Under the pieces are notes generated by a model. That model worked only from the letters and a program-made list of their open reading frames with translations, had not been told where the DNA came from and searched no databases. From an uncultured bacterium (GTDB taxonomy: Bacteria > Patescibacteriota > Gracilibacteria > Absconditabacterales > Absconditicoccaceae), in assembly GCA_903953935.1 (NCBI GenBank), contig CAJBLF010000056.1:1-46952 (forward strand): a stretch of DNA of 46,952 bases, given 5' to 3'. Numbering within the stretch: position 1 is the first letter of the stretch; each line of letters starts with the position of its first letter. Both the position numbers and the translations under genes were made by a program. Shown here piece by piece: positions 3,902 to 46,830 of this stretch.

Positions 3902-4300
3902 TTTTTTCTGATTTTTTTTGACTTTTTTTTTGAGAGATATGTTTTTCACCAATATACATACAATATTAGGAACACGTTCTTGGTGAATGAACTTGTTTCC
4001 ATTGGTCTCTAGTTTCCTAGGTCTAGAGCTATATAAAGTAATTACTTGCTGTCTATGAAGTATAGATGAGATGCTATACGCCACGATGAATTTCGTCCAT
4101 ATCCCCGCATGTTTATCTGCTAGACAGAAATGCGGGGGTGGGCGCTTATGTTTGTTGCCATACAAACATACGGCATGAGATATAAGTTCGACTGATAAGG
4201 AGAACACTACTTCATCGATGTGCGATACTTGCTCATTGCCGCAAGAGATTGTAAAAAAGCAAAATAGGAAAAAAACTGACAAAGTCAGGACAAAAGTTAT
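3902..4300 (-). other. Long leader/open frame upstream of the M23-like lipoprotein, with a stable hairpin
   Basis: The region is open in the frame of the downstream gene but has poor coding character after its first 25 codons. It contains a GC-rich inverted repeat CCCCGCAT (4103-4110) / ATGCGGGG (4130-4137) with an inner CTG/CAG pairing, strongly GC-biased for this window. It may be a regulatory leader or a decayed lipoprotein start. Confidence 0.4.
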
Positions 4301-4366
4301 CACCCGGGTGCAGACTATAGTTACTTAGCTTCTGAAGCCACGTAAAAAACATTTGCACCCGGGTGC
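4301..4366. repeat. REP-like repeat, paired copy after the vanW-like gene
   Basis: Two CACCCGGGTG palindromes (4301-4310 and 4355-4366, the second as full GCACCCGGGTGC) flank a ~44-bp spacer. The second lies 5 nt beyond the vanW-like stop. The spacer resembles that of 22857-22921 and contains an inner hairpin GCTTC-A-GAAGC on the minus strand. Confidence 0.75.
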
Positions 4367-4371
4367 TAATA

Positions 4372-22821: not shown

Positions 22822-22849
22822 AGTATACACATTTAATAAAAAAAGTCAA
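22822..22849 (-). promoter_or_regulatory. Promoter of the small membrane protein gene
   Basis: On the minus strand TTGACT (22844-22849), a 16-bp spacer, TATACT (22822-22827). Confidence 0.7.
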
Positions 22850-22856
22850 ATATATA

Positions 22857-22921
22857 ACCCGGGTGCGATATTTCGTTGCTGACTTTCTAAAGCTACTTAG
22901 TAACTATTTGCACCCGGGTGC
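22857..22921. repeat. REP-like repeat, paired copy after tex
   Basis: A palindrome ACCCGGGT (22857-22864, extended by GC) and a perfect GCACCCGGGTGC (22910-22921) flank a ~43-bp spacer that matches the spacer at 4301-4366 at many positions. The second lies 5 nt beyond the tex stop codon. Confidence 0.75.
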
Positions 22922-22926
22922 GATTA

Positions 22927-25209
22927 TTAACTAAACGTAATATTTCCTTTCATAGTAGATTCATTCACACGTTCGTCTCTTTGTACAATCTCCACTTTTT
23001 TCTCGCTACTTCATCTAGCTTCGGTTCTTGGTGCTTGTGGCGCAGAATCATCTTTCATGCTCAAGGAGACCTTCTCTCTCTCGAGGTCAATATCAATGAC
23101 TTTGACTTTTACTTGTTGACCAACCTTTACGACATCTACCGGATTTGCAACAAAATAATTTGCCATCTGTGATTTGTGGACCAATCCATCACTATGTAAT
23201 CCGATATCTACAAATGCTCAGAAATCCGTTACATTTCTTACAATACCATCCAACTTCGTTCCTATTTCTAAATCTTTAATATCCAAAATTGTTGACGAGA
23301 AGCATGGTGCTTCGAGTTCATCTCTCGGATCTAGTCCTGGTCTTTGAAGTTCAGCCAAGACATCTCTTAAAGTCTCTAATCAAATCTTATAAGATTCTGA
23401 CCATTCTTTGATTTTATTCTCTGGATATTTTTCTACGGTCATAGGCAACTTTAAATCCTTTTTTTTAATTCCCATTTCTTTTTCCAACAACTCATAGACT
23501 TGTTTGTGAATCTCAGGATGAATACCCGTTTCATCCAAAATCTCTTTTCCTCATTTGATTCTCAAAAACCCAATCGCTTGTTCATAGGCTTTGGGACCAA
23601 GTCCCTTTACTTTTTTGATCTGTGCTTTGCTCGTAAATTTTCCGTTTTCATCTCTATAAGCAATAACGTTTTTTGCAACCGTTTCGCTGAGTCCAGCGAT
23701 ATATTGCAACAAAGTATAGCTTGCTGTATTGACGTCGACACCTACGCTATTTACGATATCTTCTACCTTTTCTTCCAATTTTTCTTTCAAATATTTTTGG
23801 TCTACATCGTGTTGATACTGTCCGACACCGATAGATTTTGGATCTATTTTTGTGAGTTCAGCCAATGGGTCTTGTACTCTATGGGCGATACTTATGGCTC
23901 CTCTGATGGTTACATCTAGATCAGGATATTCGTCTTGTGCGAGTTTAGATGCAGAATATACTGATGCTCATGATTCAGAAGTAATCATGTATTTTACATT
24001 CAGTTTATATTTTTCAATAAAATCATGAACTACTTTTTCTGATTCTCTCGATGCTGTTCCATTTCCTATAACGATCAAATCTATCTTATACTGATCGACT
24101 AATCTCTTCAACGTTTCCCAAGCTTCCGTTATTTTTTTCTGTGGTTCAGTAGGATAGATGACAGTTTTATCCAAAAATTTTCCTGTTTGATCAACGACAG
24201 CAAGTTTACATCCAGTCCTAAATGCAGGATCAAAACCCAATACACTCATTCATTTTATCGGTGGAGTAAGTAATAGATTTTTCAAGTTCTCACCAAAGAC
24301 TTTGATTGCCGATTCGTCAGCTCGTCTTTTTTTGTCTGATCTAATTTCGCGTTCAAGTGAAGGCAAAAGCAATCTATGTAATCAATCTTCACATGCTTCT
24401 TGGACATAACAGATAGAAGTTCCATAGTTTTTTGGAAAGAAAAATTTTGTCGTTTCTTCTCGGATTTTATCGTTGGAAAATTCTAATTTTACTTGTAGCT
24501 GTTTTTCGGTTTCTGCTCTAGAAACTGCGAGATATGCGTATGACGGCATATCAGAAAGTTTCTTGCTATAGTCGCCATAGATTTTATACACTCATTTATC
24601 ATCAAATGTTTTGGTCTTTTTACAGGCAAGTATTCACATGTTTTCTTCTCTGACTTTGATATCTTCTCTCAGATCAGCATGATCGGATACTGCTTCAGCC
24701 AAAATGTCTTTTGCTCATTGAATTGCTTCAGCTCTATCTTTGACGCTTGTTTTTGCATCACCCGTATCCTTGATAAATTTGTCTGCTTCGGTTTCAAAGT
24801 CTTCTTTACTCATTTGTGCCTTGGTCAAAATATCTGCCAATGGTTCCAATCCTTTCGCTTTAGCGATAGTAGCTTTCGTATTTTTTTTCTCTTTAAATGG
24901 TCTATAGAGATCTTCAACTCTCGCCAAAGTTTCTGCTTCCATAATTTGCTTTTTTAATTCATCGGTCATCAAGCCTTTTTCTTCGATTAGACGAATGACA
25001 TCAGCCTTTCTCGCTTCTAGATTTCTTGTATATCTATACATTTCATCAAAATCTCTGAGCTGCTCATCAGTTGCTCATTCGGTAAGTTCTTTACGATATC
25101 TCGCAATAAATGGAACCGTATTTCCTTCATCCAAAAGCTGGACAATAGTACGTACAATAGTTGGTGAAATTCCAACTTTTTTACTGATGATATTGATCAA
25201 ATCTGCCAT
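22927..25209 (-). CDS. tex: Tex-family RNA-binding transcription accessory protein
   Basis: The protein has 760 aa from ATG 25209. In order: N-terminal helical domain ([19 protein letters not shown]), central YqgF/RuvC-like domain ([20 protein letters not shown]), HhH pairs ([18 protein letters not shown] and [16 protein letters not shown]), and a C-terminal S1 RNA-binding domain ([20 protein letters not shown]). All Tex domains are present at normal length. The last 30 residues form a charged tail. Tex binds nucleic acid during transcription; its exact role is unclear. TGA glycines occur throughout. Confidence 0.95.
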
Positions 25210-25272: not shown

Positions 25273-25932
25273 TTATAATATTTCCACTATTTTAAGGTTT
25301 TTATCTACAAAGGTATAGAGTTTAGCTGGTCTATATTGTACACCAATTTCTTTTTCTCATGTTTCTTTTACTAACCCAAGTTTCTCTATTTTTTTTCTAA
25401 AATTCCTTACATCTATCTGTTGATCAAGAATTGTTTCGTATACATCTTGGAGTTGTCTAAGGGTGAATTTTTTAGACAAAATATATTGTGCTACATTGGT
25501 ATATTCCATTTTCCATTTTAATCTTTGGATAGCATATTCTACTATTTTCTTATGATCAAAAGCAAGCTTTGGCAATTTTTTTACATCAAAAAATTTGACC
25601 TCTTCAGCATCATCTCAAGGCTTGATCATTACATTTTCTCTGGACATCAAAGCTATATAAGCACACGAGATAGCTCTTCCTCTTGGGTCTCTTTTGACTT
25701 CGGAGAAAGTATAAAGTTGTTCCAGGTAAGCGTTTTTTACGCTTGTCTCATCAGCTAGTTTTCTATATGCGGCCTGTTGTAGAGTCTCATCTTCCATAAC
25801 AAATCCGCCAGGCAGAGCTCGTTCTCCTTTGAATGGTTCTATTGATCTTTTGATAAGCAATATTTGGAGACTATCCTGAGTGATAGTAAAAATTATATTG
25901 TCTACAGTGACGAGAATACGTTGTTTAATCAT
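25273..25932 (-). CDS. NrtR-like Nudix-HTH regulator
   Basis: The protein has 219 aa from ATG 25932. An N-terminal Nudix domain (LLIKRSIEPFKGERALPGGF) is followed by a C-terminal winged-helix region (LSKKFTLRQLQDVYETIL and DVRNFRKKIEKLGLV). The Nudix box is degenerate: GGFVMEDETLQQAAYRKLAD has Lys-Leu-Ala-Asp where Glu-Leu-x-Glu is expected. This layout is that of NrtR, which senses ADP-ribose to regulate NAD genes. The upstream gap (25950-26136) has dyads that could be its operator, and pncA-pncB lie elsewhere in the window. The target genes here are inferred, not shown. Confidence 0.78.
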
Positions 25933-25949: not shown

Positions 25950-26136
25950 AAAAAAGACTACTGGTACACCGATTGTTTTCGAATTTTGTAATTACTTCAC
26001 TTGGTTCGTACTTACAATTTCTCAAATCATCGGTATAACTTCGACGTTAGAAAATATTTCAATTGCTTTCATATTTTCTTGGCGTCTCAGTAAGTGTAGT
26101 CTTTTTTGTCTCAAAATCAATAATTGTTGTAAGTAC
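25950..26136. promoter_or_regulatory. Gap upstream of the NrtR-like gene with crossing inverted repeats
   Basis: A perfect 12-bp pair AAAAAAGACTAC (25950-25961) / GTAGTCTTTTTT (26096-26107) crosses a second pair GTACTTACAA (26008-26017) / TTGTAAGTAC (26127-26136). The latter is part of an operator-like palindrome TTGTAAGTACAA. Only a 26-codon ORF lies here. It may hold the promoter and operator of the NrtR-like gene. Confidence 0.45.
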
Positions 26137-26138
26137 AA

Positions 26139-32872: not shown

Positions 32873-33793
32873 TTAGAAGAGTATTGAACCCTCATCATCC
32901 CATTTTGTGTACAATTTGCAATTAGGACGAAGGATAAGATACTTTACTTCTTCTTTTGCGCCACCGTTGGAATTCATACAATCATCATCCACTACACAGG
33001 ACATACCATGTACCGAATAACGATAAGCTCCGAAAGGTAAAATCTCCAGAAGACGTCCATTTTTTTTGATGTAGTCATTGATTTCTTGGATTTTTTCTTC
33101 CTTTGCTTTGTGTTTGATTATCCAACCAGCAATCTCTTTTTCAGCATCATTCTGAGGTATTTCGGTATTATACAAGACCCTGAAAGTGATCTGGTTTGCA
33201 CCGAGTGTTTTTGCGCGTTCAAAGATTTCCGCAGGAGTTTTGTCATTGTAATAATCGACCATATTGAGCGATAACCGGAGATTGAAATCGTATTTCCGGA
33301 TGGCTGCACATGTTTCATCGATTTTTACAAACGCTTTTTCATTTTTCGGCCGTGAATACGCTGCGTTGAGATCTGAGTCGAAGATGTTGAATAAACTCAG
33401 CGAGATTGTCTTTATACGTACAAAGTCACGTAACCAACGAAGGTTTTTTTGTCCGCCATTATCAGCTTCTTCAAGTAAGAAGACTCCGCTTGTTTGGATT
33501 TCCATCCAACGGAAAGGTAAACTTAATCGTTTGTTGAGGTCAACCACTTTGCGGATAAATGTTTTGTTGATGAGCGGTTCGCCATCGCCGGTGAACATGA
33601 GTGTGTTGCAACCATTGTCACGTGCAAAATTCATAGAATCCAGATAGTCCTGTTCGTACAAAGCCTCAAACTGATAGTTTTTCTCAATCTGATTTTTGTA
33701 AAAATCGGTATCGGTATGAAGTTTACTTACGCAACAAGCACAACTGTTTACACATGCTCCTGGTACTACAATACTTAAGCTTTGAATTTTCAT
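32873..33793 (-). CDS. Radical SAM protein
   Basis: The protein has 306 aa from ATG 33793. The cluster motif ACVNSCACCVSK gives CxxxCxxC (Cys14, 18, 21), and the SAM-contact motif is MFTGDGEPLI (GEPL). A C-terminal group of cysteines (MSCVVDDDCM, RPNCKL) could bind a second cluster. There is no TGA and every one of about 16 glycines is GGN, which is unlikely for a native gene. The reaction is not predictable. It is divergent from the PP2C/kinase operon and shares its TGA-free character. Promoter at 33838-33865 has host-like spacing. Confidence 0.85.
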   Translation of the reverse strand: MKIQSLSIVVPGACVNSCACCVSKLHTDTDFYKNQIEKNYQFEALYEQDYLDSMNFARDNGCNTLMFTGDGEPLINKTFIRKVVDLNKRLSLPFRWMEIQTSGVFLLEEADNGGQKNLRWLRDFVRIKTISLSLFNIFDSDLNAAYSRPKNEKAFVKIDETCAAIRKYDFNLRLSLNMVDYYNDKTPAEIFERAKTLGANQITFRVLYNTEIPQNDAEKEIAGWIIKHKAKEEKIQEINDYIKKNGRLLEILPFGAYRYSVHGMSCVVDDDCMNSNGGAKEEVKYLILRPNCKLYTKWDDEGSILF

Positions 33794-33837
33794 ATCAATT
33801 GTCGTTTAGTTATTTTTTTGTTTGAATTATAAAAGAT

Positions 33838-33865
33838 ACTATACATATTTATATGTAAAAGTCAA
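33838..33865 (-). promoter_or_regulatory. Promoter of the radical SAM gene
   Basis: On the minus strand TTGACT (33860-33865), 16-bp spacer, TATAGT (33838-33843). Confidence 0.7.
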
Positions 33866-33917
33866 CAAATAATATTCAAGCTAGTATCGGAGATTTGTTT
33901 TTACTTATTGTTATTTT

Positions 33918-33965
33918 TACATTTTCTCTTGCAATCACTTAGAAATTGTATATACTACAATTACT
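33918..33965 (+). promoter_or_regulatory. Shared promoter/operator block, copy A (PP2C-kinase-VWA operon)
   Basis: TTGCAA (33929-33934), 16-bp spacer, TATACT (33951-33956). An inverted repeat AATTGTA / TACAATT (33944-33962) brackets the -10 box and could be an operator. This 48-bp block matches 39129-39176 with three differences. Confidence 0.75.
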
Positions 33966-34168
33966 CAAGAGCAAGAAATAATTTGGTATCGTATATCTGC
34001 GACGGACTGCAAGAGCGATAGTAAATAAGCTTTCAAGCTATATATCTGCTCACGAGTGCTCATTACCTACGCCGGGACTTTGTATGAAGGAAGTCCTTAT
34101 AGATTACATTCTACTTATTGTAATTTATACAAGTTCATTAATAGATACACACTAAAAAAACAAAAAAT
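33966..34168 (+). promoter_or_regulatory. Long 5' leader of the PP2C gene
   Basis: About 200 nt without an ORF. It contains hairpins such as GGACTT...AAGTCC (about 34076-34098) and GCTT/AAGC near 34030. It may be a structured leader; no known riboswitch motif was recognised. Copy B of the promoter has only a 46-nt leader. Confidence 0.4.
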
Positions 34169-35017
34169 ATGAAAAATCTCGATCAATTTCAAGTCGCTGG
34201 AGCTTCTGTCGCTGGTTCGCGCCATGTAAAAATCGGTAAAAACAACCAAGACAGTTATGTTTGGATAAGAAATCCCGACTACATTATATGTGTAGTGAGT
34301 GATGGTTGTAGTAGTGGTCCTCACAGCGAGGTCGGCAGCAATATTATAGCTCCTTTGTTTGCCAAGACACTAGCAACGTATATATCCAAACCACATCCTA
34401 GCCTAAGCGATGAAAATTTTTTTCGTCATGATTGGCTATGGTACAATGTCAGGCAAGATGTTCTTGCCCGTATACGTGTCCTTGCACAGAGCATGGATGA
34501 AAATCTGATAGCAACTATTTGTCAGTATTTTCTGTGTACTGTTGTAGGATGTGTAATTACTCCTACGAGTACGTGTATATTTGGCTGTGGGGATGGGGTT
34601 TTCTCTCTCAATGGCGATATGCATGTACTAGGTCCTTTCCCTGGCAATAAGCCTCCCTACCTATGTTATGGAATAACTGGCAGTGAAGTTACCAATCAAA
34701 ATCCTTCACTTCTAGATATCCAGAGACATATAATCTGTCCTACTGATGATGTACAATCTTTACTTATCGGTAGTGATGGAGTATCTGATCTTGTTGGTAG
34801 TTCTGAAAAGAATTTTCCAGGACAAGATAAACGTATAGGTGACATTAGTCAGTTTTGGACTGATGATATTTACTTCTCCAATCCTGAATGGATGCGTAAT
34901 GTATTGGCAACCATCAATACTGAGAAACGCAAACCTGTATGGGAAGAAAGGACTATTATGAAGTATCAGGGATTATTGCCTGATGATACGACACTCATTA
35001 CTCTTAGAGCACATTAA
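34169..35017 (+). CDS. PP2C-family protein phosphatase
   Basis: The protein has 282 aa from ATG 34169. Metal-binding motifs follow the PPM order: NNQDSYVW, CVVSDGCSSGPHSEVGS, LLIGSDGVSDLV and LPDDTTLITL. It has no membrane segment. It should remove phosphate from Ser/Thr, presumably opposing the kinase encoded 13 nt downstream. There is no TGA. It is the first gene of an operon with the kinase, an isochorismatase-like hydrolase and a VWA protein, the composition of TerY-P-type phosphorylation triads. Confidence 0.9.
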   Translation: MKNLDQFQVAGASVAGSRHVKIGKNNQDSYVWIRNPDYIICVVSDGCSSGPHSEVGSNIIAPLFAKTLATYISKPHPSLSDENFFRHDWLWYNVRQDVLARIRVLAQSMDENLIATICQYFLCTVVGCVITPTSTCIFGCGDGVFSLNGDMHVLGPFPGNKPPYLCYGITGSEVTNQNPSLLDIQRHIICPTDDVQSLLIGSDGVSDLVGSSEKNFPGQDKRIGDISQFWTDDIYFSNPEWMRNVLATINTEKRKPVWEERTIMKYQGLLPDDTTLITLRAH

Positions 35018-35030
35018 AAACAATCTGACT

Positions 35031-36917
35031 ATGAAAACCGTTTATCTCAATGGTCAAGCAATCCGACTTTCGAAAGAAATCGGTGCTGGCCAAGAAGCAG
35101 TAGTGTATGATATGGGAAATGGTCAGGTTGCGAAGATTTATCGTCTGCCCAATGATCCTTATTATACCCAATCTCCTGATGAGCAAAAAGCTGCAACAGC
35201 GAGAATTAGTATGCACCAAAAAAAATTAGCAATGTATCCTGGTGGGCTACCCAGCAACATCATCGTTCCTCGTACTCTGTTGACGGATAAGCAAGGAATT
35301 ATCTTGGGGTATACTATGCCATTTATTACTGGTGCTGAGACCCTTCTTAAATATGGAGATATGGGATACCGACAATCTATGAACATTAGTAATAATGAAA
35401 TCAGAGATATCTTCCTCAATCTTCATGACACGCTAAGAAATCTTCATGATAAAAAAGTAATCATCGGTGATTTCAATGACTTGAATATCCTCGTGAAGAA
35501 CAAACAAGTCTATATGATAGATACTGATTCCTACCAATTTGGTCCCTGGATCAGCACGATGTATACAGACAAATTTATAGATCCTTTGTTGTGTGATACG
35601 CTTCTCAAAAATCATGCTCCCTTCTGGACTATGACTCGCAATCACAACTTCAATGGTGACTGGTATGCGTTCGCTGCTCTGCTCTTCAAATCACTTCTTT
35701 TTGTCGATCCCTACGGTGGTATTTACAAACCCAAAGATCCCAATAAAAAGCTGAAACAACAATTTCGTCCTTCCAAAAGGATCAATGTGTTTCATCCTGA
35801 AGTGCTTTATCCTAAGCATGCATATCCTTACAAGGCTTTGGATGCAAATATGCTCCGCTATTTCCAAGACGTTTTCACCAAGGACAAGAGAGGTGAATTT
35901 CCTCACTCACTCCTAAAGAATATGCAATGGAAATATTGTAATGCGTGTGGTATAGAGTATGCAACTCCTGCATGTCCTATCTGCAATGCGGGTCATATAC
36001 ATATCATGTCTCCTATCTCTGTAAGTGGTAATCTCCAAGTAAAAGAAGTTTTTGTTACGGGTGGTATCATCATGTTTGCTGATGTTCAGCATGGCAAGTT
36101 GGTGTATCTGTATCACGAAAACGACCAATACAAACGTGAAAGTGATAGAGTCGTAATCTCTGGACCTTTGTCCCGCAGTTTACATATCGCTATCAATGGA
36201 AACACTACAGTACTGAGTGAATCTCATACTATGGCAGTTGTTGATCAATCCGGCACATCCCAGAAAATGTTTATTGATTGTGTAGGTACACGTCCTGTAT
36301 GTGATGCCAACGATCATCAGATATACTGGGTTGAAAATGGAAATATCTACAAAGCTAATCCTTTGGGATTACAATACTCACCAATCAATATCGGTCAGGC
36401 TATTGTAGATAATACACTGCTATGGACGGGAGATAAATTTGGATTTGGGGTATACAAGGCCGGCAATATTTTGCAAGGATTTATGTTCGATGATGTAAGT
36501 AGTATAATCAACGACAACGTAAACTTACCTTTTATCAAAGGGCAAGTTATCGATGCAAAGACATATATCAGCGACAATCTTGCATGGTTTATGATTGCTA
36601 GCAAAGACCAATCTCAATATATCAATCACTGTATCGTGATAGATAAACATGGAAAAATCCTGACACATATCACTGATGAACAGGAAAATAAATCATGGTT
36701 ATCTCACATCAAAGGTAAATCTGCTTTTGGCAATTATCTTTTCTGCCCTACAGATGATGGTATTATGAGAATAGGAATCGATCCGAGTGGAAACCTGGAA
36801 ACTAAAGTGTTTGTCGATACAGAAAATTATGTCAACGAGCAATCTAGTTTACTGGTTAGCCCTATGGGTATTTATGTTATCAAACGGAATAAGATTCTTC
36901 TTGTTTCTATAAAATAA
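35031..36917 (+). CDS. Ser/Thr protein kinase-like protein with zinc ribbon and C-terminal beta domain
   Basis: The protein has 628 aa from ATG 35031, chosen because it follows the PP2C stop by 13 nt and begins at the kinase fold; an ORF start at 34983 overlaps PP2C. G-loop GAGQEAVVYD, Lys35 in VAKIYR, catalytic GDFNDLNIL (Asp147, Asn152) and a DTD in place of DFG (Asp164) follow in order. After the kinase comes a zinc ribbon, YCNACGIEY and ACPICNAGH. The remaining ~300 residues form repeated beta strands, perhaps a propeller-like sensor. No TGA is used. Together with PP2C and the VWA protein it resembles TerY-P modules. Confidence 0.85.
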   Translation: MKTVYLNGQAIRLSKEIGAGQEAVVYDMGNGQVAKIYRLPNDPYYTQSPDEQKAATARISMHQKKLAMYPGGLPSNIIVPRTLLTDKQGIILGYTMPFITGAETLLKYGDMGYRQSMNISNNEIRDIFLNLHDTLRNLHDKKVIIGDFNDLNILVKNKQVYMIDTDSYQFGPWISTMYTDKFIDPLLCDTLLKNHAPFWTMTRNHNFNGDWYAFAALLFKSLLFVDPYGGIYKPKDPNKKLKQQFRPSKRINVFHPEVLYPKHAYPYKALDANMLRYFQDVFTKDKRGEFPHSLLKNMQWKYCNACGIEYATPACPICNAGHIHIMSPISVSGNLQVKEVFVTGGIIMFADVQHGKLVYLYHENDQYKRESDRVVISGPLSRSLHIAINGNTTVLSESHTMAVVDQSGTSQKMFIDCVGTRPVCDANDHQIYWVENGNIYKANPLGLQYSPINIGQAIVDNTLLWTGDKFGFGVYKAGNILQGFMFDDVSSIINDNVNLPFIKGQVIDAKTYISDNLAWFMIASKDQSQYINHCIVIDKHGKILTHITDEQENKSWLSHIKGKSAFGNYLFCPTDDGIMRIGIDPSGNLETKVFVDTENYVNEQSSLLVSPMGIYVIKRNKILLVSIK

Positions 36918-36951
36918 GACGCCGGCTCCGCCATTGCGGAGTAACGTCGTT
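36918..36951 (+). terminator. Terminator after the kinase gene
   Basis: GACG...CGTC and CTCCGC/GCGGAG stems with a CATT loop and a T-run directly after the stop codon. It may attenuate rather than end the operon, since two same-strand genes follow without an obvious promoter. Confidence 0.75.
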
Positions 36952-37079
36952 TTTATCCAGCTCAGCTGGGTGAAATAAAACTTAGAGCACTATGAGTTTA
37001 AAATTAATTTTGTCATGAAGTGCTTCGTGACCAATAAAAATAGAAATAAAAATAAGTTAAACACTCTAATTCTTTCACC

Positions 37080-38105
37080 ATGAAAAAGTTTAGTAATCCG
37101 AAGCATTACGATGCTTCCAAGGCCGATCAGGTTTACAAGATTGGCTATCAGAATCTGGCAACTGACGCATTGGACTTCAAAGCCCAAAATGCAATCACAG
37201 ATGCAGCCACCGACAAGTTTAAAATCGCTCTCATGCCTATCGATGTGCAAAATACATTCTGCATACCAGGCTTCGAGCTCTTCGTAGGAGGTGCCCCTGA
37301 AGACAGCAAACGTCTTGCTGAATTTGTTTATGCCAATGTTGGTAGGATCACCAAGATCTTCCCGACTATGGATACCCACAAAGCTATGCAAATTTTCCAC
37401 TCGTTGTTCTTTTTGGACGCTAGTGGAAAACCTGTGCCTGCGATGACTATGATCTCTTCAGCAGATCTGATCAATGACACCTACACCATCAATCCTGGTG
37501 TTGCTGCAAGTTTGGGTGTATCTTATACCGCGCTCAAAAAGCACACTATTCACTATGCACAGTCCCTGGAGAAAAAAGGAAAATATCAGCTGACGGTATG
37601 GCCCTACCATGCAATGCTTGGTGGGATCGGACACGCACTGGTATCGATCATCGAAGAAGCCGTATTTTTCCACACCGTTGCAAGAAACAGTGAATCCGGA
37701 ATAGAGATCAAGGGAGGTAATCCTTTGACTGAAAACTATTCTGTGCTCAGTCCTGAGGTTTTAGATACCTTCAATGGTACCGCTATCGCTCAGCGTAATG
37801 CCAGCTTCATCCAGAAACTTCTGGACTATGATATGCTGATCATTACCGGACAGGCCAAATCACATTGTGTTGCCTGGAGTATCGACGACCTGCTCACCGA
37901 CATCATGGCCAAGGATCCCTCACTTGCAAAGAAAGTTTACCTTTTGGAAGACTGTACTTCGCCCGTAGTTATCCCTGGTATCGTGGATTTCACCGACCAA
38001 GCCAATCAGGCTTTTGAAAAATTCCGCAATGCCGGTATGCACATCGTAAAAAGCACCGACCCAATCGATCAGTGGCCGGATGTGGATGTAAACAAATTTA
38101 TATAA
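37080..38105 (+). CDS. Isochorismatase/nicotinamidase-like cysteine hydrolase
   Basis: The protein has 341 aa from ATG 37080. It carries the three catalytic residues of the family in order: Asp in MPIDVQNTFC, Lys in EIKGGNPLTENYS, and Cys in IITGQAKSHCVAWS. The segment LTVWPYHAMLGGIGHAL matches the PncA motif WPxHC..GT.GA with Met in place of the usual cysteine. It is longer than PncA (about 200 aa). A nicotinamidase or other amidase role is possible. There is no TGA, and GC is higher than in native genes. Its place between kinase and VWA genes suggests a role in the same system. Confidence 0.8.
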   Translation: MKKFSNPKHYDASKADQVYKIGYQNLATDALDFKAQNAITDAATDKFKIALMPIDVQNTFCIPGFELFVGGAPEDSKRLAEFVYANVGRITKIFPTMDTHKAMQIFHSLFFLDASGKPVPAMTMISSADLINDTYTINPGVAASLGVSYTALKKHTIHYAQSLEKKGKYQLTVWPYHAMLGGIGHALVSIIEEAVFFHTVARNSESGIEIKGGNPLTENYSVLSPEVLDTFNGTAIAQRNASFIQKLLDYDMLIITGQAKSHCVAWSIDDLLTDIMAKDPSLAKKVYLLEDCTSPVVIPGIVDFTDQANQAFEKFRNAGMHIVKSTDPIDQWPDVDVNKFI

Positions 38106-38118
38106 TCAATAAAAAATT

Positions 38119-38124
38119 AGGAGG
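38119..38124 (+). promoter_or_regulatory. Strong Shine-Dalgarno before the VWA gene
   Basis: AGGAGG, 8 nt before ATG 38133. Most genes of the window have no SD, so this site stands out. Confidence 0.8.
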
Positions 38125-38132
38125 ACAAAAAA

Positions 38133-38924
38133 ATGTCAAACAGTTCAAACAATCTCGGACTCTTGCAGAATGCTCATGAAGAGGGAGATCTCAGTAGTGG
38201 TTCTTTGAATGCACTTACCAAGATTCCCGATATCGGAGCGATTATTCAACAGGGGCTTGGTGTGCCGATAGATTCGGTACGATCGAGCGAAGTTATTCTG
38301 CTCAATATACTCGTTGATGACTCAGGTTCTATCCAGAGTGCTCGTAATGAACAGCCCATAAGGGATGGACATAATATGTTGATTCAGGCTTTGCTTGAGA
38401 GCAAACAACAGGACAATATCGAAGTTATCAACAGGTATCTCAATGGGAAAGTCTTGTATCCCTATACACCACTATCCCTCGTTCCCAAAATGGATTCAGG
38501 AAATTATGATGCCAATGGAGGTACACCTCTATTTGACGAAACAGCAAAGCTTCTGGCTACTGTCATCGCAAAGGCTCAGGATTTCAAAAACAATGGTATC
38601 CAGGTACGGACGATTACTCTGATTCTCACCGATGGTGACGATTGTCATTCACGTACAAGCACAGCTACTGACGTATCTAAGATTGTCACAGACATGCTCA
38701 GAAGTGAAGATCACATCGTTGCTGCTATGGGATTTGATAATGGATCATGCAATTTCAAAAAAGTATTTTCCGATATGGGAATTCCCGATCGTTGGATACT
38801 TACTGCAAATGCAAATCCAAGTGAAATCCGTAAAGCGTTCCAGATGTTTAGTCAGAGCGCTGTACGTGCTTCTCAGAGTGCAGCCCATTTCAGCCAGACC
38901 AGTCTTGGTGGTTTTGGTGGATAA
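38133..38924 (+). CDS. VWA-domain protein (TerY-like)
   Basis: The protein has 263 aa from ATG 38133. A complete MIDAS site is visible: VDDSGSI (Asp62, Ser64, Ser66), Thr in NGGTPLFDE, and Asp in LILTDGDD. The C-terminal 30 residues are Ser/Ala/Gly-rich (SQTSLGGFGG). VWA proteins of TerY type work with a PP2C and a kinase; both lie upstream in the same operon. The start follows an AGGAGG. All glycines are GGN. It ends the operon before a hairpin and a strong terminator. Confidence 0.88.
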   Translation: MSNSSNNLGLLQNAHEEGDLSSGSLNALTKIPDIGAIIQQGLGVPIDSVRSSEVILLNILVDDSGSIQSARNEQPIRDGHNMLIQALLESKQQDNIEVINRYLNGKVLYPYTPLSLVPKMDSGNYDANGGTPLFDETAKLLATVIAKAQDFKNNGIQVRTITLILTDGDDCHSRTSTATDVSKIVTDMLRSEDHIVAAMGFDNGSCNFKKVFSDMGIPDRWILTANANPSEIRKAFQMFSQSAVRASQSAAHFSQTSLGGFGG

Positions 38925-38974
38925 TCGAGACGCAATCAAAATCCGAATTTTTCTGAGGATTTTATAACGTCGAG

Positions 38975-39043
38975 ATTATACCGGCGATTTTTGATACATA
39001 AAGTACGAATGTAATGTATGATTTCAAAAACAGTCGGTATAAT
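38975..39043. repeat. Long imperfect hairpin after the VWA gene
   Basis: Arms ATTATACCG (38975-38983) and CGGTATAAT (39035-39043) enclose TTTTTGA/TCAAAAA and ACAT/ATGT pairs. It may be an RNA 3' structure, a decayed mobile element end or a recombination site. Confidence 0.5.
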
Positions 39044-39085
39044 GTTAAGAAAGTTTTCTTTCTTAGCTAGTCAACTATTAATGAG

Positions 39086-39115
39086 ACCCGTGTTGTATTT
39101 TAACACGGGTTTTTC
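39086..39115 (+). terminator. Terminator of the PP2C-kinase-VWA operon
   Basis: Perfect stem ACCCGTGTT / AACACGGGT with a 7-nt loop and T-run. Confidence 0.9.
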
Positions 39116-39128
39116 TTATTGTAAAAAA

Positions 39129-39176
39129 TACATTTTCTCTTGCAATTGATTAGAAATTGTATATACTACAATTACT
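39129..39176 (+). promoter_or_regulatory. Shared promoter/operator block, copy B (upstream of the pncA-pncB region)
   Basis: TTGCAA (39140-39145), 16-bp spacer, TATACT (39162-39167), with the AATTGTA / TACAATT dyad (39155-39173). Nearly identical to 33918-33965. Confidence 0.75.
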
Positions 39177-39221
39177 CCGGTGGAGTGAAATAGAATGTGA
39201 AGATTTTATTTCTTACTATAT

Positions 39222-39554
39222 ATGCTCATGTTAACAGCTAAACAATCATCGGACATGCTCAAAAACATGTCTCCACAACAAAGACTAGAAGCATTGAAAA
39301 ACAAAGTAAGCGCAAAAACTAGAGAAGCTCTCGAGGTTAAAATTCGTGAAACTGTAGCGGCATATGAAAGAGATATCGAAATTGTTTTGACATCAAAGAT
39401 ATGTACGGATCCAGACAAAGACATCGCAGCTTTATTAAAGGGATTAGGATATACTAGTGTAAAAATCACTTCTGACTTCCCTGGATATAGTGAAAGTTAT
39501 GAAGGTACGACAAAGATAAAATTCTCTATTCCTGAATTCTGTGATCCTGATTAA
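39222..39554 (+). CDS. Small protein, unknown function
   Basis: The protein has 110 aa from ATG 39222 (39228 is equally possible). It has a helical first half (SPQQRLEALKNKVSAKTREA) and a short mixed second half (DFPGYSESYEGTTKIKF). There is no TGA among few glycines. It is the first gene after promoter copy B, ahead of pncA. No family recognised. Confidence 0.6.
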   Translation: MLMLTAKQSSDMLKNMSPQQRLEALKNKVSAKTREALEVKIRETVAAYERDIEIVLTSKICTDPDKDIAALLKGLGYTSVKITSDFPGYSESYEGTTKIKFSIPEFCDPD

Positions 39555-39635
39555 CATTTTTTTTCTCTTCTACTTATTGTACATATTACATTTACTATTT
39601 ATATATTTACTATTTATATATTTACCCCCTTACCT

Positions 39636-40451
39636 ATGGAAACAATGACAGCAACAAAATCACAGACCACTTCAGTTGAGTCTATACATTTGAATACCTG
39701 TACTGACGTTCAGGATGTCGCTATGATAAGCGTAGACAATACTCAGACCTTTGAAAACAAAGAGCTCAATGAACTTTATGTCACCGAGTGAGAGCAGGTA
39801 GCACAAGCAACAAAAACCATTATGGAGGCGTGTGCATATTATGGGATTACCTTAATCAATGTGATAGAGGAACATCCATTAGGACACATTTCATTAGCAG
39901 CCAATTACAAGGACAAAAAACCGTTTGATTCTATCAATTACTTTGAAGTGGCAAATCGAACTGATGAAGAAAATGGACTAAGCAAAAGAGCTCAATTCAC
40001 GGTAGCTGAATTACAAACATTTTTAAAGGAATTAGCAACAAATGGAACGGGATCACAGATGTTACGACCCGATCATGGAATTGTAGATACCCAATGAGTA
40101 GAGCTCACCCAACCATTACAAGAATCAGATTTTGATGTGAAAATTGTCAAATGAACCAATCCCGCTAGAGAGGCATATAGTTGATTTGATGGGACAACAT
40201 TAGATGAACAACTTACCAAAAGAGAAAAAAAGATTGTACTCATTTGATGAGTAGCTACCGATTATTGTGTGGGAAATACAGCATTAGATGCAAGAAAACA
40301 TGGGTATGAAGTCTATCTTATCGATGATGCTATCAGAGGAGTTGCGCAAGAAACAACTGATGCTATGATGCAGACATTGAAGGGAGAATGAGTCAGATTT
40401 ATTTCTTCTCAAAAATTATTTCAGATTCTCAATCAACAATTTGCTGACTAA
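39636..40451 (+). CDS. pncA: Nicotinamidase (PncA)
   Basis: The protein has 271 aa from ATG 39636 to TAA 40449. Catalytic residues are in order: Asp in MISVDNTQTF, Lys in KIVKGTNPAREAYSGF, Cys in IGGVATDYCVGNTALDA. The metal-site segment LRPDHGIVDTQG fits the family's WP.H motif. It turns nicotinamide into nicotinate. Several glycines are TGA (CTEGEQ, IVKGTN, IGGVAT), marking it as native. pncB starts 27 nt downstream, so both salvage steps are one operon. It is unrelated in sequence detail to the isochorismatase-like protein at 37080. Confidence 0.92.
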
Positions 40452-40478: not shown

Positions 40479-42152
40479 ATGACTACTTTCGATACAAAAT
40501 CATACAAAGCAAGACTTCAAGAGTTTCCTGAGATTACCTTTGAGGAATATCAACAGATTACAGACTTGCAGGTCAGGAGAGATATTGCAAAAAAAAATAA
40601 AATCATCCAGACTGATGCTTACAATAGGACGATGAATTTTATTAAATGAGAAAAAAAATCTAAACAGAGAGAGACCTTCTCATTGTCTTTCAGAAGATCA
40701 CCAAACAAACAGTATGTAGTAGTAGATGGTATCAGAAGCACATTGAAAGATATTCTAGGAATTAGAATAACTCAAGCAGAACTTGATTTTGCTAAAGCAT
40801 TTTACGCAGACCAAAAGGCAAGATGAGGAAATGGATATTTCGATGCTGATATGTGGCAGGAAGTAGTAAATAATGGTGGGTTTATTCCTTTAGATATCAA
40901 AGCAGTTGCAGATGGTACGGTACTCAAACCCAAAGAGCCAGTGATGTTGGTAAGTGGGCCGGCAGAACTTGCAGCCACCTATGAACCAGTATTTCTCAGA
41001 GCATTTTTTAAAAGTATTGTTGCTACCGATGCTCATTATTTGGAAGAGATTATCTGACAAGGAAGAGTCGCTGAATTCGGTAAAAGAGCAACCGCAAATG
41101 AGGATTTTCATCTCGATGCGGTAGAAGCAAATATCGTAGGCGGAGGATTAACAAGTACCTCAAATGATACGGCGGCATTAGTATATCCACAAGTACTCAG
41201 TGGAGGAACTACCGCACATAGATATTTTGCTTGTTATCCTACAGAAAACGATGCATTCATAAATGCTATAGAAAAATGTGATAAGATAGCATTGCTCGTA
41301 GACTTAGTAGATTCCTACAAATGAATAGACAAGATAGTAGCATTAAAGAAAAAATATAGATCAAGCGGTAAAATTATAGGTATGAGATTGGATAGTGGAG
41401 ATCTCGCTGATCAAGCAGTCTATGCGCTCAAAAAATTACAAGAGCATGATATGCTCGATCCAAAATTGGATAAGATCGTAGTCGCAGATATCTCTACAGT
41501 TGATGATGTAAGACGTGTGGAAGAAGCAGTTGCTGCGGCATGATTCAATCCAAAAGACTTTATTCAATACGGACTCGGATGATTGTTGGTTGCGAGAAAC
41601 AAAACAAGAGATGCATTATCAGCAGCATATAAACTTACTAAAACTGAAGACTGAGCGACAGGAAAACTTTCCAACGATATCGACAAAGAACCGATTCCAT
41701 GAGATACCAATATCGAGATCAGAGATGGGGTAAGATATATCGTCCAAGAGGATGAAGAGATTCAGGGAGAAAGGTTGTTGAAAAACGTATATAGCAATGG
41801 TGAATTATCTTACGATGATAATGATATCCAAGCGGTTACGGATGCAAGAAATCAACTAGTGAAGACTTTTGATTTGGCGAAATTAGACACCAAGGAAAGC
41901 GAGACAACAAGAAAAATTCACGAAGAAGTGAGAGAGAGATTACTTGATAATTTAGATGATCATGTCTCCATGAAGAAGCTCTATGATCAATGAGCAGAAA
42001 CATTTGGTCAAAAAGAAGTATTCGAAACATGGTTACATACGCCACATTTCTTGATGTGATGAGCAACTCCTTATAGTATGATTCAGACACCAGAAGGAAA
42101 ACAAACAATCTATGAAGAACTTATAAGGATCGAACATGGAATATGTTGTTAA
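40479..42152 (+). CDS. pncB: Nicotinate phosphoribosyltransferase with C-terminal MbcA/ParS/Xre-like toxin-binding domain
   Basis: The protein has 557 aa from ATG 40479 to TAA 42150. The core is PncB-like: TDAYNRTM near the N-terminus, LSGGTTAHRYFACY (His247, the phosphorylated His position), MRLDSGDLAD and FIQYGLGGLLV. It makes nicotinate mononucleotide from nicotinate and PRPP. Residues about 498-557 match the antitoxin domain of the MbcA/ParS/Xre type (DUF2384): GAETFGQKEVFETWLHTPHF, then MGGATPYSMIQTPEGK and ELIRIEHGIC. The frame is continuous through TGA glycines inside the tail. RES/MbcT/ParT toxins that pair with such domains attack NAD or PRPP synthetase, so a link to NAD supply is plausible (inference). 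No RES gene is in the window. Confidence 0.85.
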
Positions 42153-43362: not shown

Positions 43363-43426
43363 AGCGTAGTGATATATACATAAATACCTGATATATAGTA
43401 ATTTGAAATATAAAATCAAATCATTA

Positions 43427-43454
43427 TTGACATTTAATAGTAAATATATATAAG
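43427..43454 (+). promoter_or_regulatory. Repeated promoter, copy 1
   Basis: TTGACA (43427-43432), 16-bp spacer, TATAAG (43449-43454). The same block recurs at 43938 and 46105. Confidence 0.75.
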
Positions 43455-43460
43455 ATAAAA

Positions 43461-43911: not shown

Positions 43912-43937
43912 AAAATGTACATGCTATCGTACTACTA

Positions 43938-43965
43938 TTGACATTTAATGGTAAATATATATAAG
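43938..43965 (+). promoter_or_regulatory. Repeated promoter, copy 2
   Basis: TTGACA (43938-43943), 16-bp spacer, TATAAG (43960-43965), one base different from copy 1 within the spacer. Confidence 0.75.
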
Positions 43966-44023
43966 ATAAATTACAGAAAACAAATATTTAATGTAAAAAC
44001 AAAAAACAAACAAAGTAAAATCT

Positions 44024-46039
44024 ATGAAAAAAATTGTAATGGCACTGATGATGACATGGGTATGTCTCTCAGTATTCGCATTCGACATTCCGGAACGACC
44101 AAACCCACCTAAGCTTGTGAACGATTATATTGGACTCTTGCAGCCCAATCAAATCCAGGCATTGGAAACCAAACTGGTTGAATTCAACAACAAGACGAGT
44201 ATCCAGATTGCTATAGTCATCCTTGATGACCTCGGTGGTGAAGATGCTAAAGTAGTTGTTGATCAACTGGGCGACAAATGGGGTGTAGGACAGGAAGGAT
44301 TGAACAATGGCATTGTCTTCATGATTGTGAAGTACAGCGAAAAAGCGCTGGAAAACATGACGGAGCAGAAGCGTGGAGATTGTCAGATTGCAGTAGCTGA
44401 TGGTTTAGGTGAATATCTGACCGATATCGAAGCCACAAACATCAGTAACGACGTATTCATTCCTTACGCAAAAAGTGATGAGTACTATAAAGGAATCGAC
44501 GAAACCGTAAATACCATGCTCCAAAAGCTTGGTCCTATCGGTTGGGAACAACGTCAGGCATTCATCAAAAAGAAAGAAGCGGAACGCGCAGAAGCTACAC
44601 GCGAATTCTTGAATGGCTTGTTGATGACAGCTATCATCATTGGAATCATTGTTTTGATAACAGTGCTGGTAATTGTTATCAGGAGATCTTATCTCAAGAA
44701 AAAAGAGATACGGGAACGAAGAGCATCGTTAAAGAAAAGTTTCGATGAGAATAATGTCTCGTATAAGCGGCTTTTGGGTATGATTACTTCCATGGGAAAC
44801 GGATATCCTGAATGGGCAAAAACTCGGCATGAGGAGATCGTTAGAAAGATTAATAGCGATATTAAAGTGTCATGTGAAGAGGTACTCAAAAGATTTCCTG
44901 AAGTTGTAGAAACCAATCTTGTGTTAGCTTCTAAATATGTAGGACAATTTACTGATGTAGTTGATCAGTTTGAAAGTATGATAACTCAACTTGATCAGAT
45001 TCCTGCAGAAGTTGATATGTACAATCTTTATGCTCCTGCAGTACTCAAAACTACTCAGGATACGTGGAATGAGTTTTCCAGCAAAATTCAGAACAAACAG
45101 AAACAAGGATACAAACTCCTTGATTACCAAAAACAATCGGAAGGTTTCAAAAATGATCTTTCCAATATTGATACAAAGTTGAAACTCGGAAATGAAGAAA
45201 GTAAGTATGTATATGAAACCAGCAAAACAACCAATGAAGCAATTCATAATGTTTGGTTGAGTATGCAAACATATCTTCAGAATCAGGAATCAACGAAAAC
45301 AATCATTGCATCACTGACGTCTGATATCAATCAAATTCCTACCAAACGCGCTGCTGCTCAAAAGATTCTGGATACGCTCAAGGCTGAGTGTCCCAAAGAA
45401 AATTGGGAAGATCTGGATAAACTTTTTGGTGGCGTAACCGCATTGCTCAGCTTATGCTCAGCAAAAAAAGAAGAAGCAGAAGTAAGAAATGGAATGGATA
45501 TCCAGGATTTTACTACTGCCAAATCCATGGCTGATGAGGGAAATGAAAAGATGCAGCGGATAGAAAACTTGTTCCAGGATATCCAGGAACGAAAGGATGA
45601 AATCATCAATGCTAAAGCGAATTATGCTTCTATGCTGAAATCAGCGAAAACTGCAATTTCTTCGGCATCCAGCAAATGTTCTGATTCGGATGTTGAGTCC
45701 GGAGCTAAAAACAAATTGGCGGAAGCACAGAAAAAGTTCAAATCAGCAGAAGCGAAAGCTACCGAATCGCTCATCAATTGGCTTGCTTGTATTGTACTTT
45801 TGACTGCAGCAAAATCGCTTGCAGACGAAGCATACGGGATGGCCGAAAATGATATCGAAGAAGCGGAAAATGAAAGAGCAAGAGTAGCTGCAGCTGCAGT
45901 AGCAGCCGCAGCCGCGGCAGCCGCAGCAAGAAGATCAGAATCCTACCATTCGAGTTCATCAAGCAGTAGTAGTAGTACAAGTTTCAGTGGTTTCGGCGGC
46001 GGCAGTTTTGGCGGCGGCGGAGGCGGCGGAAGCTGGTAA
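44024..46039 (+). CDS. TPM-domain (YgcG-like) membrane protein with long coiled-coil insertion
   Basis: The protein has 671 aa. A signal peptide (MKKIVMALMMTWVCLSVFA) is followed by a TPM domain: LVNDYIGLLQPNQIQALE, then IQIAIVILDDLGG and DGLGEYLTD. One membrane helix (LLMTAIIIGIIVLITVLVI) is followed by about 350 residues of coiled coil and an Ala-rich stretch. The end is the typical Ser/Gly tail of the family (FGGGSFGGGGGGGSW). All ~50 glycines are GGN, many GGC, with no TGA. TPM proteins often pair with LemA, which is the next gene. It probably faces the periplasm or outside. Confidence 0.85.
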   Translation: MKKIVMALMMTWVCLSVFAFDIPERPNPPKLVNDYIGLLQPNQIQALETKLVEFNNKTSIQIAIVILDDLGGEDAKVVVDQLGDKWGVGQEGLNNGIVFMIVKYSEKALENMTEQKRGDCQIAVADGLGEYLTDIEATNISNDVFIPYAKSDEYYKGIDETVNTMLQKLGPIGWEQRQAFIKKKEAERAEATREFLNGLLMTAIIIGIIVLITVLVIVIRRSYLKKKEIRERRASLKKSFDENNVSYKRLLGMITSMGNGYPEWAKTRHEEIVRKINSDIKVSCEEVLKRFPEVVETNLVLASKYVGQFTDVVDQFESMITQLDQIPAEVDMYNLYAPAVLKTTQDTWNEFSSKIQNKQKQGYKLLDYQKQSEGFKNDLSNIDTKLKLGNEESKYVYETSKTTNEAIHNVWLSMQTYLQNQESTKTIIASLTSDINQIPTKRAAAQKILDTLKAECPKENWEDLDKLFGGVTALLSLCSAKKEEAEVRNGMDIQDFTTAKSMADEGNEKMQRIENLFQDIQERKDEIINAKANYASMLKSAKTAISSASSKCSDSDVESGAKNKLAEAQKKFKSAEAKATESLINWLACIVLLTAAKSLADEAYGMAENDIEEAENERARVAAAAVAAAAAAAAARRSESYHSSSSSSSSSTSFSGFGGGSFGGGGGGGSW

Positions 46040-46062
46040 AATCTATGAAATAATCTATCACG

Positions 46063-46092
46063 GCAGACCTGTATGTAGGGTCTGCTTTTTTT
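46063..46092 (+). terminator. Terminator after the TPM gene
   Basis: Stem GCAGACC / GGTCTGC with a ~9-nt loop and a T-run. Confidence 0.85.
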
Positions 46093-46104
46093 GTAAAATA
46101 AGTA

Positions 46105-46132
46105 TTGACATTTAATAGTAAATATATATAAA
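46105..46132 (+). promoter_or_regulatory. Repeated promoter, copy 3
   Basis: TTGACA (46105-46110), 16-bp spacer identical to copy 1, TATAAA (46127-46132). Confidence 0.75.
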
Positions 46133-46165
46133 ATATACCGATGTGATATTTAACATTATCTATCT

Positions 46166-46243
46166 ATGGGAGTACGCGAAAATCCTGAAGACCAAAGAGT
46201 AGCAAAAAACAAATCAAAAAAATCAAAAAAATGAACGGATTAG
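46166..46243 (+). CDS. Short upstream ORF overlapping lemA
   Basis: ATG 46166 opens a 22-codon, Lys-rich frame (MGVRENPEDQRVAKNKSKKS) that meets TGA at 46232, one base after the lemA start (ATGA overlap). With TGA as Gly it ends at TAG 46241. The ATGA overlap resembles translational coupling in a standard-code donor. It may be a leader peptide or chance. Confidence 0.35.
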
Positions 46244-46830
46244 TAAAAACATTACTCGTATTGGGCATTATTGCCCTCGCATTCATGGGTGGCTGTAACT
46301 ATGTGAAGAACACATTCAACAGTATGGTGGACAAACAGGAAGAAGTCAACAAGGCATGGTCGGATGTGGAAAGCGTCTATCAGCGCCGGGCTGACCTCAT
46401 CCCCAACCTGGTGCTTGTCGTAAAAGGTGCTGCTAATTTTGAGCAGTCAACCCTTACCGCGGTTATCGAGGCAAGAGCCAAGGCAACGTCTATCACCATT
46501 GATCCCAGCAAAGCAACACCGCAGCAGCTGAAACAGTTTACAGAAGCACAGCAGGGTGTACAATCGGCTTTGTCCAGGTTAATGGTGGTGGTAGAAAAAT
46601 ACCCCGAGCTCAAGGCTAACAAAAACTTCTCGGATCTCCAGGTACAGTTGGAAGGTTCAGAAAATCGGATTACTGTCGAACGCAGGAAATTTAATGATGC
46701 AGCAAGAGAGTACAACAGGTACATCAGGCGATTTCCCAACAACTTCCTTACTGGCTTTGGCAATTTTCAGCCACGGGCGTATTTTGAAGCAGACAAAGGT
46801 GCAGAAAAGGCGCCTGAAATAAAATTCTAA
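46231..46830 (+). CDS. lemA: LemA-family protein
   Basis: The protein has 199 aa from ATG 46231. An N-terminal membrane segment with a possible lipobox (ALAFMGGCNYV) is followed by the LemA core: VNKAWSDVESVYQRRADLIP, then SDLQVQLEGSENRITVERRK and the ending YNRYIRRFPNNF. The family is exposed outside the membrane; its function is unsettled, and it is commonly adjacent to TPM-domain genes, as here on both sides. No TGA is used and GC is higher than in native genes. Confidence 0.95.
   Translation: MNGLVKTLLVLGIIALAFMGGCNYVKNTFNSMVDKQEEVNKAWSDVESVYQRRADLIPNLVLVVKGAANFEQSTLTAVIEARAKATSITIDPSKATPQQLKQFTEAQQGVQSALSRLMVVVEKYPELKANKNFSDLQVQLEGSENRITVERRKFNDAAREYNRYIRRFPNNFLTGFGNFQPRAYFEADKGAEKAPEIKF

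Follow-up and report, generated by a model that had tools for sequence, protein, structure and literature searches.

A putative NrtR regulon with its own operator and a TerY-P-type module among its members in an uncultured absconditabacterium

Regulators of the NrtR family, which join a Nudix domain to a winged helix, have been described in Shewanella, Streptococcus, and Mycobacterium, where palindromes precede genes of nicotinamide adenine dinucleotide (NAD) metabolism and nrtR itself. In published NrtRs, DNA binding is lifted by ADP-ribose (PMC6800001, PMC12735969), a degenerate Nudix box is common (PMC12735969), and the motifs that are recognized vary widely between taxa (PMC4666351; PMC5343134). 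The TerY-P triad, as summarized in a secondary account (PMC11090510 citing Anantharaman 2012), comprises a VWA protein, a PP2C phosphatase, and a Ser/Thr kinase with a zinc ribbon. Here we analyze a stretch of 46,952 nucleotides (hereafter, the window), which is the entire contig C56 (CAJBLF010000056.1), one of the 65 contigs of a 1.30-Mb genome (GCA_903953935.1) from an uncultured bacterium affiliated with the Absconditicoccaceae. Two nearly identical promoter/operator blocks in the window precede, respectively, an operon encoding a PP2C phosphatase, a kinase, a PncA-like hydrolase, and a putative VWA protein (the PP2C operon, or module) and a unit that includes pncA and pncB (the pnc unit). 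We consider it likely that the block common to both units serves as operator and promoter in an NrtR regulon to which a TerY-P-type triad and a nicotinamidase-like hydrolase belong; NrtR would bind the block and respond to ADP-ribose.

When the window was read in translation table 11, most genes were broken. Code 25 (TGA = Gly) was therefore needed, and with it the genes were intact and the gene content that had been predicted for both units was borne out.

The original prediction described a 48-bp match between 33918-33965 and 39129-39176 with three differences, and 45 of the 48 bases are identical; the mismatches adjoin one another at 33936-33938, all inside the spacer between the -35 and -10 elements. 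The 16-bp spacing of TTGCAA and TATACT was confirmed in both blocks, with TTGCAA (-35) at 33929-33934 and 39140-39145 and TATACT (-10) at 33951-33956 and 39162-39167. The dyad AATTGTA-N5-TACAATT is likewise present in both (33944-33962 and 39155-39173) and is an instance of a 15-bp operator, TTGTA-N5-TACAA. The similarity extends to 68 bp (87%; 33899-33966 and 39110-39177) because a second copy of the dyad family lies upstream in each block (33908-33922 and 39119-39133). Each block thus holds two operators, the first 5' of the -35 and the second overlapping the -10, and each unit has a third operator downstream, missed earlier, before the PP2C gene (34118-34132) or pncA (39577-39591). An intrinsic terminator separates the PP2C operon from the pnc unit. 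These elements are given below, all on the plus strand, with bit scores from a position weight matrix trained on 45 sites from other genomes only.

33908-33922, plus strand: operator O1 of the PP2C operon (TTGTTATTTTTACAT), directly 5' of the -35; 20.7 bits
33929-33956, plus strand: promoter of the PP2C operon, TTGCAA-16-TATACT, kept in the six-genome promoter alignment
33944-33962, plus strand: operator O2 of the PP2C operon (AATTGTATATACTACAATT), overlapping the -10; 24.5 bits
34118-34132, plus strand: operator O3 of the PP2C operon (TTGTAATTTATACAA), 51 bp 5' of the PP2C start; 25.4 bits
39083-39113, plus strand: intrinsic terminator at the end of the first operon, 13-pair stem and T tail
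39119-39133, plus strand: operator O1 of the pnc unit (TTGTAAAAAATACAT); 26.3 bits
39140-39167, plus strand: promoter of the pnc unit, TTGCAA-16-TATACT
39155-39173, plus strand: operator O2 of the pnc unit, over the -10, its dyad identical to O2 of the PP2C operon; 24.5 bits
39577-39591, plus strand: operator O3 of the pnc unit (TTGTACATATTACAT), 59 bp 5' of the pncA start; 25.5 bits

O1 of the PP2C operon aligns with better copies in G001 and at window position 39119, and O3 of the same operon is kept in G001, G022, and G071 (G, C, and L numbers denote genomes, contigs, and loci, respectively). Equivalents of O3 of the pnc unit precede pncA in G001, G022, G033, G071, and G008.

Specificity was assessed by pattern searches across the whole genome and by scanning 148 kb of it with the matrix. 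The likeness of the two blocks greatly exceeds chance. The 22-mer AATTGTATATACTACAATTACT, with up to three mismatches, was found only at the two blocks in the window and in 0 of 100 shuffles, and a 17-mer core, searched with up to two mismatches in the 1.3-Mb genome, had exact matches only at the two blocks. Of the promoter 16-mer ACATTTTCTCTTGCAA, the genome holds exactly three copies: one in each block and one at the nadE promoter on contig C57. Seven exact sites of the form TTATTGTA-N5-TACA were identified in the genome, each of them in front of the PP2C operon, pncA, or nad genes. The window holds three (34115, 39116, and 39574) and C57 the other four, of which 1104, 1211, and 1298 lie ahead of nadE-nadK-nadM and 4987 ahead of a second nadM-Nudix gene. 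In the genome search for the operator at promoters that had been proposed with the original prediction, exact-form sites were thus confined to NAD-regulon genes, and the block was not found before many unrelated genes, since the 16-mer, the dyad core, and TTATTGTA-N5-TACA occur only before NAD-regulon genes. The 14 best matches to the matrix (at least 20.7 bits) all lie in regulon promoters, including that of nrtR; reverse readings of the same sites aside, the next-best match scored 16.4 bits, and shuffles yielded about one match above 14. The 16.4-bit match is a perfect TTGTATATGATACAA (L018:9858-9872; C20:34858) in an intergenic region some 350 bp 5' of a gene for ribonucleotide reductase and could be chance.

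The block might instead be merely a strong common promoter of this genome. Its -35 and -10 are recognizable, and it is not the only promoter block that is shared: TTGACATTTAATRGTAAATATATATAARATA recurs at 43418-43457, 43929-43968, and 46096-46135, before an open reading frame (ORF) of 115 amino acids, a TPM-domain gene, and a LemA gene, respectively. Given that the exact 16-mer occurs three times and the dyad core twice in 1.3 Mb, all in the NAD regulon, we attach almost no weight to this explanation.

The regulator gene that had been nominated as a candidate, at 25273, and its operator are as follows.

25273-25932, minus strand: nrtR, Nudix-related regulator of 219 amino acids (PF21906, 5.6e-24; PF00293, 3.1e-16; both over cut-off)
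26124-26138, minus strand: operator of nrtR (TTGTACTTACAACAA on the nrtR strand, 26138-26124), 206 bp before the start; 21.9 bits

The encoded protein has an N-terminal Nudix-like domain and a C-terminal NrtR winged helix, and its nearest solved structures in profile comparisons are AraR (5bs6; 2.2e-52) and Shewanella NrtR (8.4e-46). Its Nudix box (residues 43-65) is degenerate, with G-x5-E retained and RE, EE, and G replaced by RK, DE, and S. Profile matches place it in the same family as the NCBIfam equivalog NF050029 (E = 2.8e-49) but not in that equivalog, the cut-off of which was not reached (167.8 versus 400 bits). A site near nrtR had been thought to resemble the shared operator; the resemblance held, although the site is the 15-bp operator listed above and not a TTGTA-N2-TACAA dyad. 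This operator is kept in G001 and G008, and nrtR is preceded by its own operator (up to one mismatch) in nine of 12 genomes that encode NrtR, which fits autoregulation.

Those 12 genomes were found in a survey of 49 genomes of this family of Absconditabacteria (SR1). Of the 12 NrtR-encoding genomes, eight have clustered operators, defined as at least two within 8 kb; none of the 37 genomes that lack NrtR has them (Fisher p = 1e-6, uncorrected for relatedness). An operator (up to one mismatch) is found within 350 bp of 31 of 39 lead genes (PP2C, pncA, nadE, and nrtR) versus 21 of 259 other genes (p = 5e-21). In a promoter alignment from six genomes, the operators, -35, and -10 were retained and the flanks had diverged. 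In three genomes with NrtR in which the module was not detected (G008, G061, and G032; the search in G061 did not span the whole genome), the operator still precedes pncA. Operators are also found upstream of a phosphoribosyltransferase-domain protein in G022 and G071 (L118:9620-10612 and L116:8012-9004) and of a 470-residue radical SAM protein in G001 and G008 (L101:9185-10600 and L056:12057-13469), which are likely further members of the regulon.

Collectively, the co-occurrence of sites and NrtR, the sites before nrtR, and the genuine NrtR domains support the nominated protein as the candidate regulator, and suggest that NrtR is the most likely regulator of the shared operator. Because NrtR motifs vary so widely among taxa (PMC4666351; PMC5343134), the motif alone does not name its protein, and a real operator common to both units could be read by a different regulator. 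However, the sites track the presence of NrtR and precede nrtR, their targets are classical NrtR genes, and no other transcription factor was recognized among the window genes scanned; we consider a different regulator unlikely. The proposal that one regulator governs both a phosphorylation system and NAD salvage is thus supported from sequence, with NrtR as the protein predicted to bind.

Several observations weigh against an NrtR regulon of this composition. The association between sites and NrtR treats related genomes as independent. The exact motif is absent from two genomes with NrtR (G014 and G017); the NrtR proteins there show 41-58% identity, and the motif may therefore differ. PncB, too, is confined to genomes with NrtR, except for one match to its tail domain alone, and some of the association may therefore reflect NAD genes travelling together. 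The matrix test is not fully independent, since its training sites were picked by allowing up to one mismatch to the same core. Finally, one carrier of the module, G173, has it without NAD neighbors. With these points taken into account, an NrtR regulon with its own operator and the TerY-P-type module as a predicted member remains the supported reading.

The module consists of four genes.

34169-35017, plus strand: PP2C protein phosphatase, 282 amino acids, no TGA codon (PF13672, 4.4e-19)
34983-36917, plus strand: Ser/Thr kinase (YegI-like), 644 amino acids, no TGA codon (Escherichia coli YegI, 25% identity, E = 2e-12)
37080-38105, plus strand: PncA-like (isochorismatase-fold) cysteine hydrolase, 341 amino acids, triad D55-K211-C263
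38133-38924, plus strand: putative VWA-domain protein, 263 amino acids, beginning of the metal ion-dependent adhesion site (MIDAS) DDSGS (E. coli YegL, E = 2e-4)

The kinase match to PF00069 (2.6e-5) is below the Pfam cut-off, and a zinc ribbon of the form CxxC...CxxC lies C-terminal to the kinase domain at residues 319-334 (CNACGIEYATPACPIC at 319). The VWA protein has the DDSGS motif, a weak match to YegL (E = 2e-4), and no Pfam VWA match. The 341-residue PncA-like protein was not recognized by Pfam or NCBIfam, but aligned with the PncA of the same locus (hhalign, 96.7%, E = 3.3e-10) such that D55, K211, and C263 correspond to D34, K172, and C211; this Asp-Lys-Cys triad is invariant in distant relatives. 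A structure model of the protein (mean predicted local distance difference test score 46.7) was too poor and was not used for a fold search.

At least six genomes (G000, G001, G022, G033, G067, and G071) carry the module, all with NrtR; this count is a lower bound because the search for the PncA-like protein covered 35 of the 49 genomes, with G067 and G071 recognized in fetched loci. The module adjoins pncA-pncB wherever the assembly is contiguous, and operators precede PP2C in six of six cases. Relatives that carry the module include SR1 RAAC1_SR1_1 and further records from Absconditabacteria and Gracilibacteria. The four genes also occur in the same order beside NrtR in two standard-code genomes of the Candidate Phyla Radiation (CPR) from other families, G110 and G245, whose NrtRs are 52 and 45% identical, respectively. 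The order in G110 is NadK, a small ORF, NrtR, the module, Nudix, a quinolinate phosphoribosyltransferase-like protein, and NadE; in G245, NrtR is followed by the module, and a nicotinate phosphoribosyltransferase is encoded a few genes away. Palindromes TAGTGTT-N5-AACACTA precede PP2C in both, G245 has a perfect TTGTAAATATTACAA as well, and these palindromes fit the same 15-bp TGT-N7-ACA frame. When the search was extended to 16 genomes of the class to which G110 belongs, no further carrier was found. A homolog of the PncA-like protein is encoded on a Variovorax plasmid (NZ_LR594690.1; L156:6100-7870), divergent from an NrtR gene and near NAD kinase and macro-domain genes. The positions of the module by NrtR in G110 and G245 and of the PncA-like gene by NrtR on the plasmid suggest that the tie of NrtR and NAD genes to the module is old and wide. 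Two palindromes GTTAGTW-N9-AACTAAC, one with one mismatch, lie between the PncA-like and NrtR genes of the plasmid.

The codon usage of the module bears on whether the two blocks could instead be the ends of an insertion or duplication, whereby a horizontally acquired PP2C operon recombined at, or copied, the pnc promoter and the likeness of the blocks is history. The repeats lie on either side of precisely this operon, in which none of about 105 glycine codons is TGA; in most neighboring genes, TGA encodes 25-60% of glycines. TGA-Gly is also absent or nearly absent from the module in the other five species, and the few counted fall mainly in over-long ORF calls. The module proteins are also nearer to those of another genus (the PncA-like protein is 95-96% identical) than to those of a congener (89%), the opposite of Tex (78-80 versus 94%). 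These observations suggest that the module has probably moved between lineages and is likely of foreign origin. However, nadE on C57 is also preceded by a copy, the third, of the -35 half together with O1; operators precede pncA in NrtR-encoding relatives in which the module was not detected; all three mismatches between the blocks are in the spacer; and across six genomes it is the operators rather than the flanks that have been conserved. For these reasons we favor function and find an insertion scar improbable; an origin by copying would in any case be compatible with control by NrtR.

Two classes of genes can be distinguished by TGA use (window 1-4303, 32873-38924, and 44024-46830; L111, L112, and L103). 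Among the TGA-free genes are a C10-protease-like gene (0 of 92 glycines), a TPM-domain gene (0 of 40), and SAICAR synthetase in G001 and G022. Such genes likely mark import from organisms with the standard code. High expression by itself is not an obvious explanation for the avoidance of TGA, because GTPase-family matches, including the best EF-Tu-type ones, use it. A phage origin of the module was not retained (just one weak kinase-domain match), and no close standard-code donor of the module was found.

The window also holds two 83-bp repeats that are 72% alike (4293-4375 and 22848-22930), with CACCCGGGTGC palindromes about 50 bp apart; CACCCGGGTG, which is similar to CACCCGGGTGC, occurs at C49:8178.

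The pnc unit comprises the following genes.

39222-39554, plus strand: first gene of the unit, 110-residue protein without a Pfam match; relatives in the same place in G001 and G033
39636-40451, plus strand: pncA, nicotinamidase, 271 amino acids, seven TGA-Gly (PF00857, 2.1e-19; NF008623, 2.3e-24, below cut-off)
40479-42152, plus strand: pncB, nicotinate phosphoribosyltransferase (NF006696, 1.3e-45, below cut-off)

At its C terminus (residues 492-557), PncB has a RES/Xre (MbcA) antitoxin toxin-binding domain (PF09722, 9.4e-10, residues 505-554; NF049845, 8.4e-15, below cut-off). RES toxins destroy NAD. The copies of PncB in G001 and G071 match over this tail too, those in G022, G033, and G008 are shorter (491-493 amino acids), and a 79-residue ORF in G007 matches the tail only. 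NadE, NadK, and NadM were identified on C57, on which two NadM-Nudix genes lie in tandem (L017:3973-5999), and the second of them has a separate operator. In relatives, nadE-nadK follow pncB, and TPM-type genes seem to be present at the ends of both contigs, so C57 may be contiguous with the right end of C56.

A candidate leader RNA lies directly 3' of the -10 and O2 of the PP2C operon.

33962-34058, plus strand: candidate structured 5' leader RNA with a conserved hairpin loop (CGACGGACTG), present in the leaders of six of six module operons

The loop reads CGACRGAC (CGACRGACWG in its longer form). The leaders are located at window 33962-34058 and in L055, L056, L057, L107, and L114; G067 has three copies, before PP2C, a 188-residue gene, and pncA. 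Single-sequence folds clearly beat shuffles in five of eight leaders (z of -2.6 to -4.4: -2.6 in the window, -2.8 in G022, and -3.3 to -4.4 in G067) and less so in three of eight. The consensus fold is a single five-pair hairpin with two covarying pairs and little covariation. Rfam covariance models gave no match at gathering score and chance-level matches only at E up to 5, and no known NAD riboswitch was thus recognized in the leader. The leader is a candidate for a new regulatory RNA of the NAD regulon.

Because the same DNA switch fronts the NAD-recycling genes and the kinase/phosphatase operon, induction of the signalling module appears to be coupled to that of NAD repair. We infer that an NrtR dimer would bind the 15-bp palindromes (W)TTGTA-N5-TACAA(W), and that at the site before the -35 and the site over the -10 it would act as a repressor by blocking RNA polymerase; the third site is some 50 bp 5' of the first structural gene. 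ADP-ribose arising as NAD is consumed would be the signal that releases NrtR, as its effect on DNA binding in published NrtRs suggests, such that pncA, pncB, nadM, nadE, nadK, nrtR, and the TerY-P-type module would be turned on jointly and the module would act in response to NAD loss. More speculatively, several CPR lineages may possess a TerY-P system dedicated to NAD, with its own nicotinamidase-like enzyme, that would be raised only under NAD destruction (e.g., by toxins or in phage defense) and would steer the response by phosphorylation, with the leader RNA as a second layer of control; we offer this as a possibility that we doubt more than we credit.

The signals and targets of TerY-P-type triads are poorly known, and their conserved link with NrtR and NAD salvage offers a concrete, testable input (NAD loss and ADP-ribose). 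The analysis also reconstructs a regulon in uncultured CPR bacteria in which TGA is reassigned to glycine, together with its sites and a named candidate for its regulator. In the literature searched, no description of NrtR in these bacteria or of an NAD-linked TerY-P module was found.

Compared to the TerY-P triad as summarized in the account cited above and to E. coli YegI-PphC-YegL, the module has the same PP2C and zinc-ribbon kinase components, with the zinc ribbon C-terminal to the kinase domain, in a single operon with a putative VWA component that has the start of a MIDAS motif. Unlike that triad, its operon holds a fourth, nicotinamidase-like gene, and its neighbors are NAD genes and NrtR rather than the usual, non-defining TerY-P context; no tellurite (ter) or DNA-processing/restriction genes were recognized among the window genes scanned. 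The 341-residue hydrolase has the Asp-Lys-Cys triad of PncA and other isochorismatase-fold cysteine hydrolases, but differs in its length and in going unrecognized by Pfam and NCBIfam, and a true PncA is encoded alongside it. The AraR/XylR branch of the NrtR family in Bacteroides, which includes the best solved-structure relative by profile (5bs6), controls sugar genes, whereas the targets here are NAD genes. With the NrtR regulons of Shewanella, Streptococcus, and Mycobacterium, the system described here shares the Nudix and winged-helix regulator with a degenerate Nudix box, and the palindromes before NAD genes and nrtR. Its operator, TTGTA-N5-TACAA, differs from the GTTTTCGA-N7-TCGAAAAC of Mycobacterium and from the Streptococcus motif (PMC6800001), and, unlike those regulons, the system would include a kinase/phosphatase module and is hosted by a code-25 CPR bacterium.

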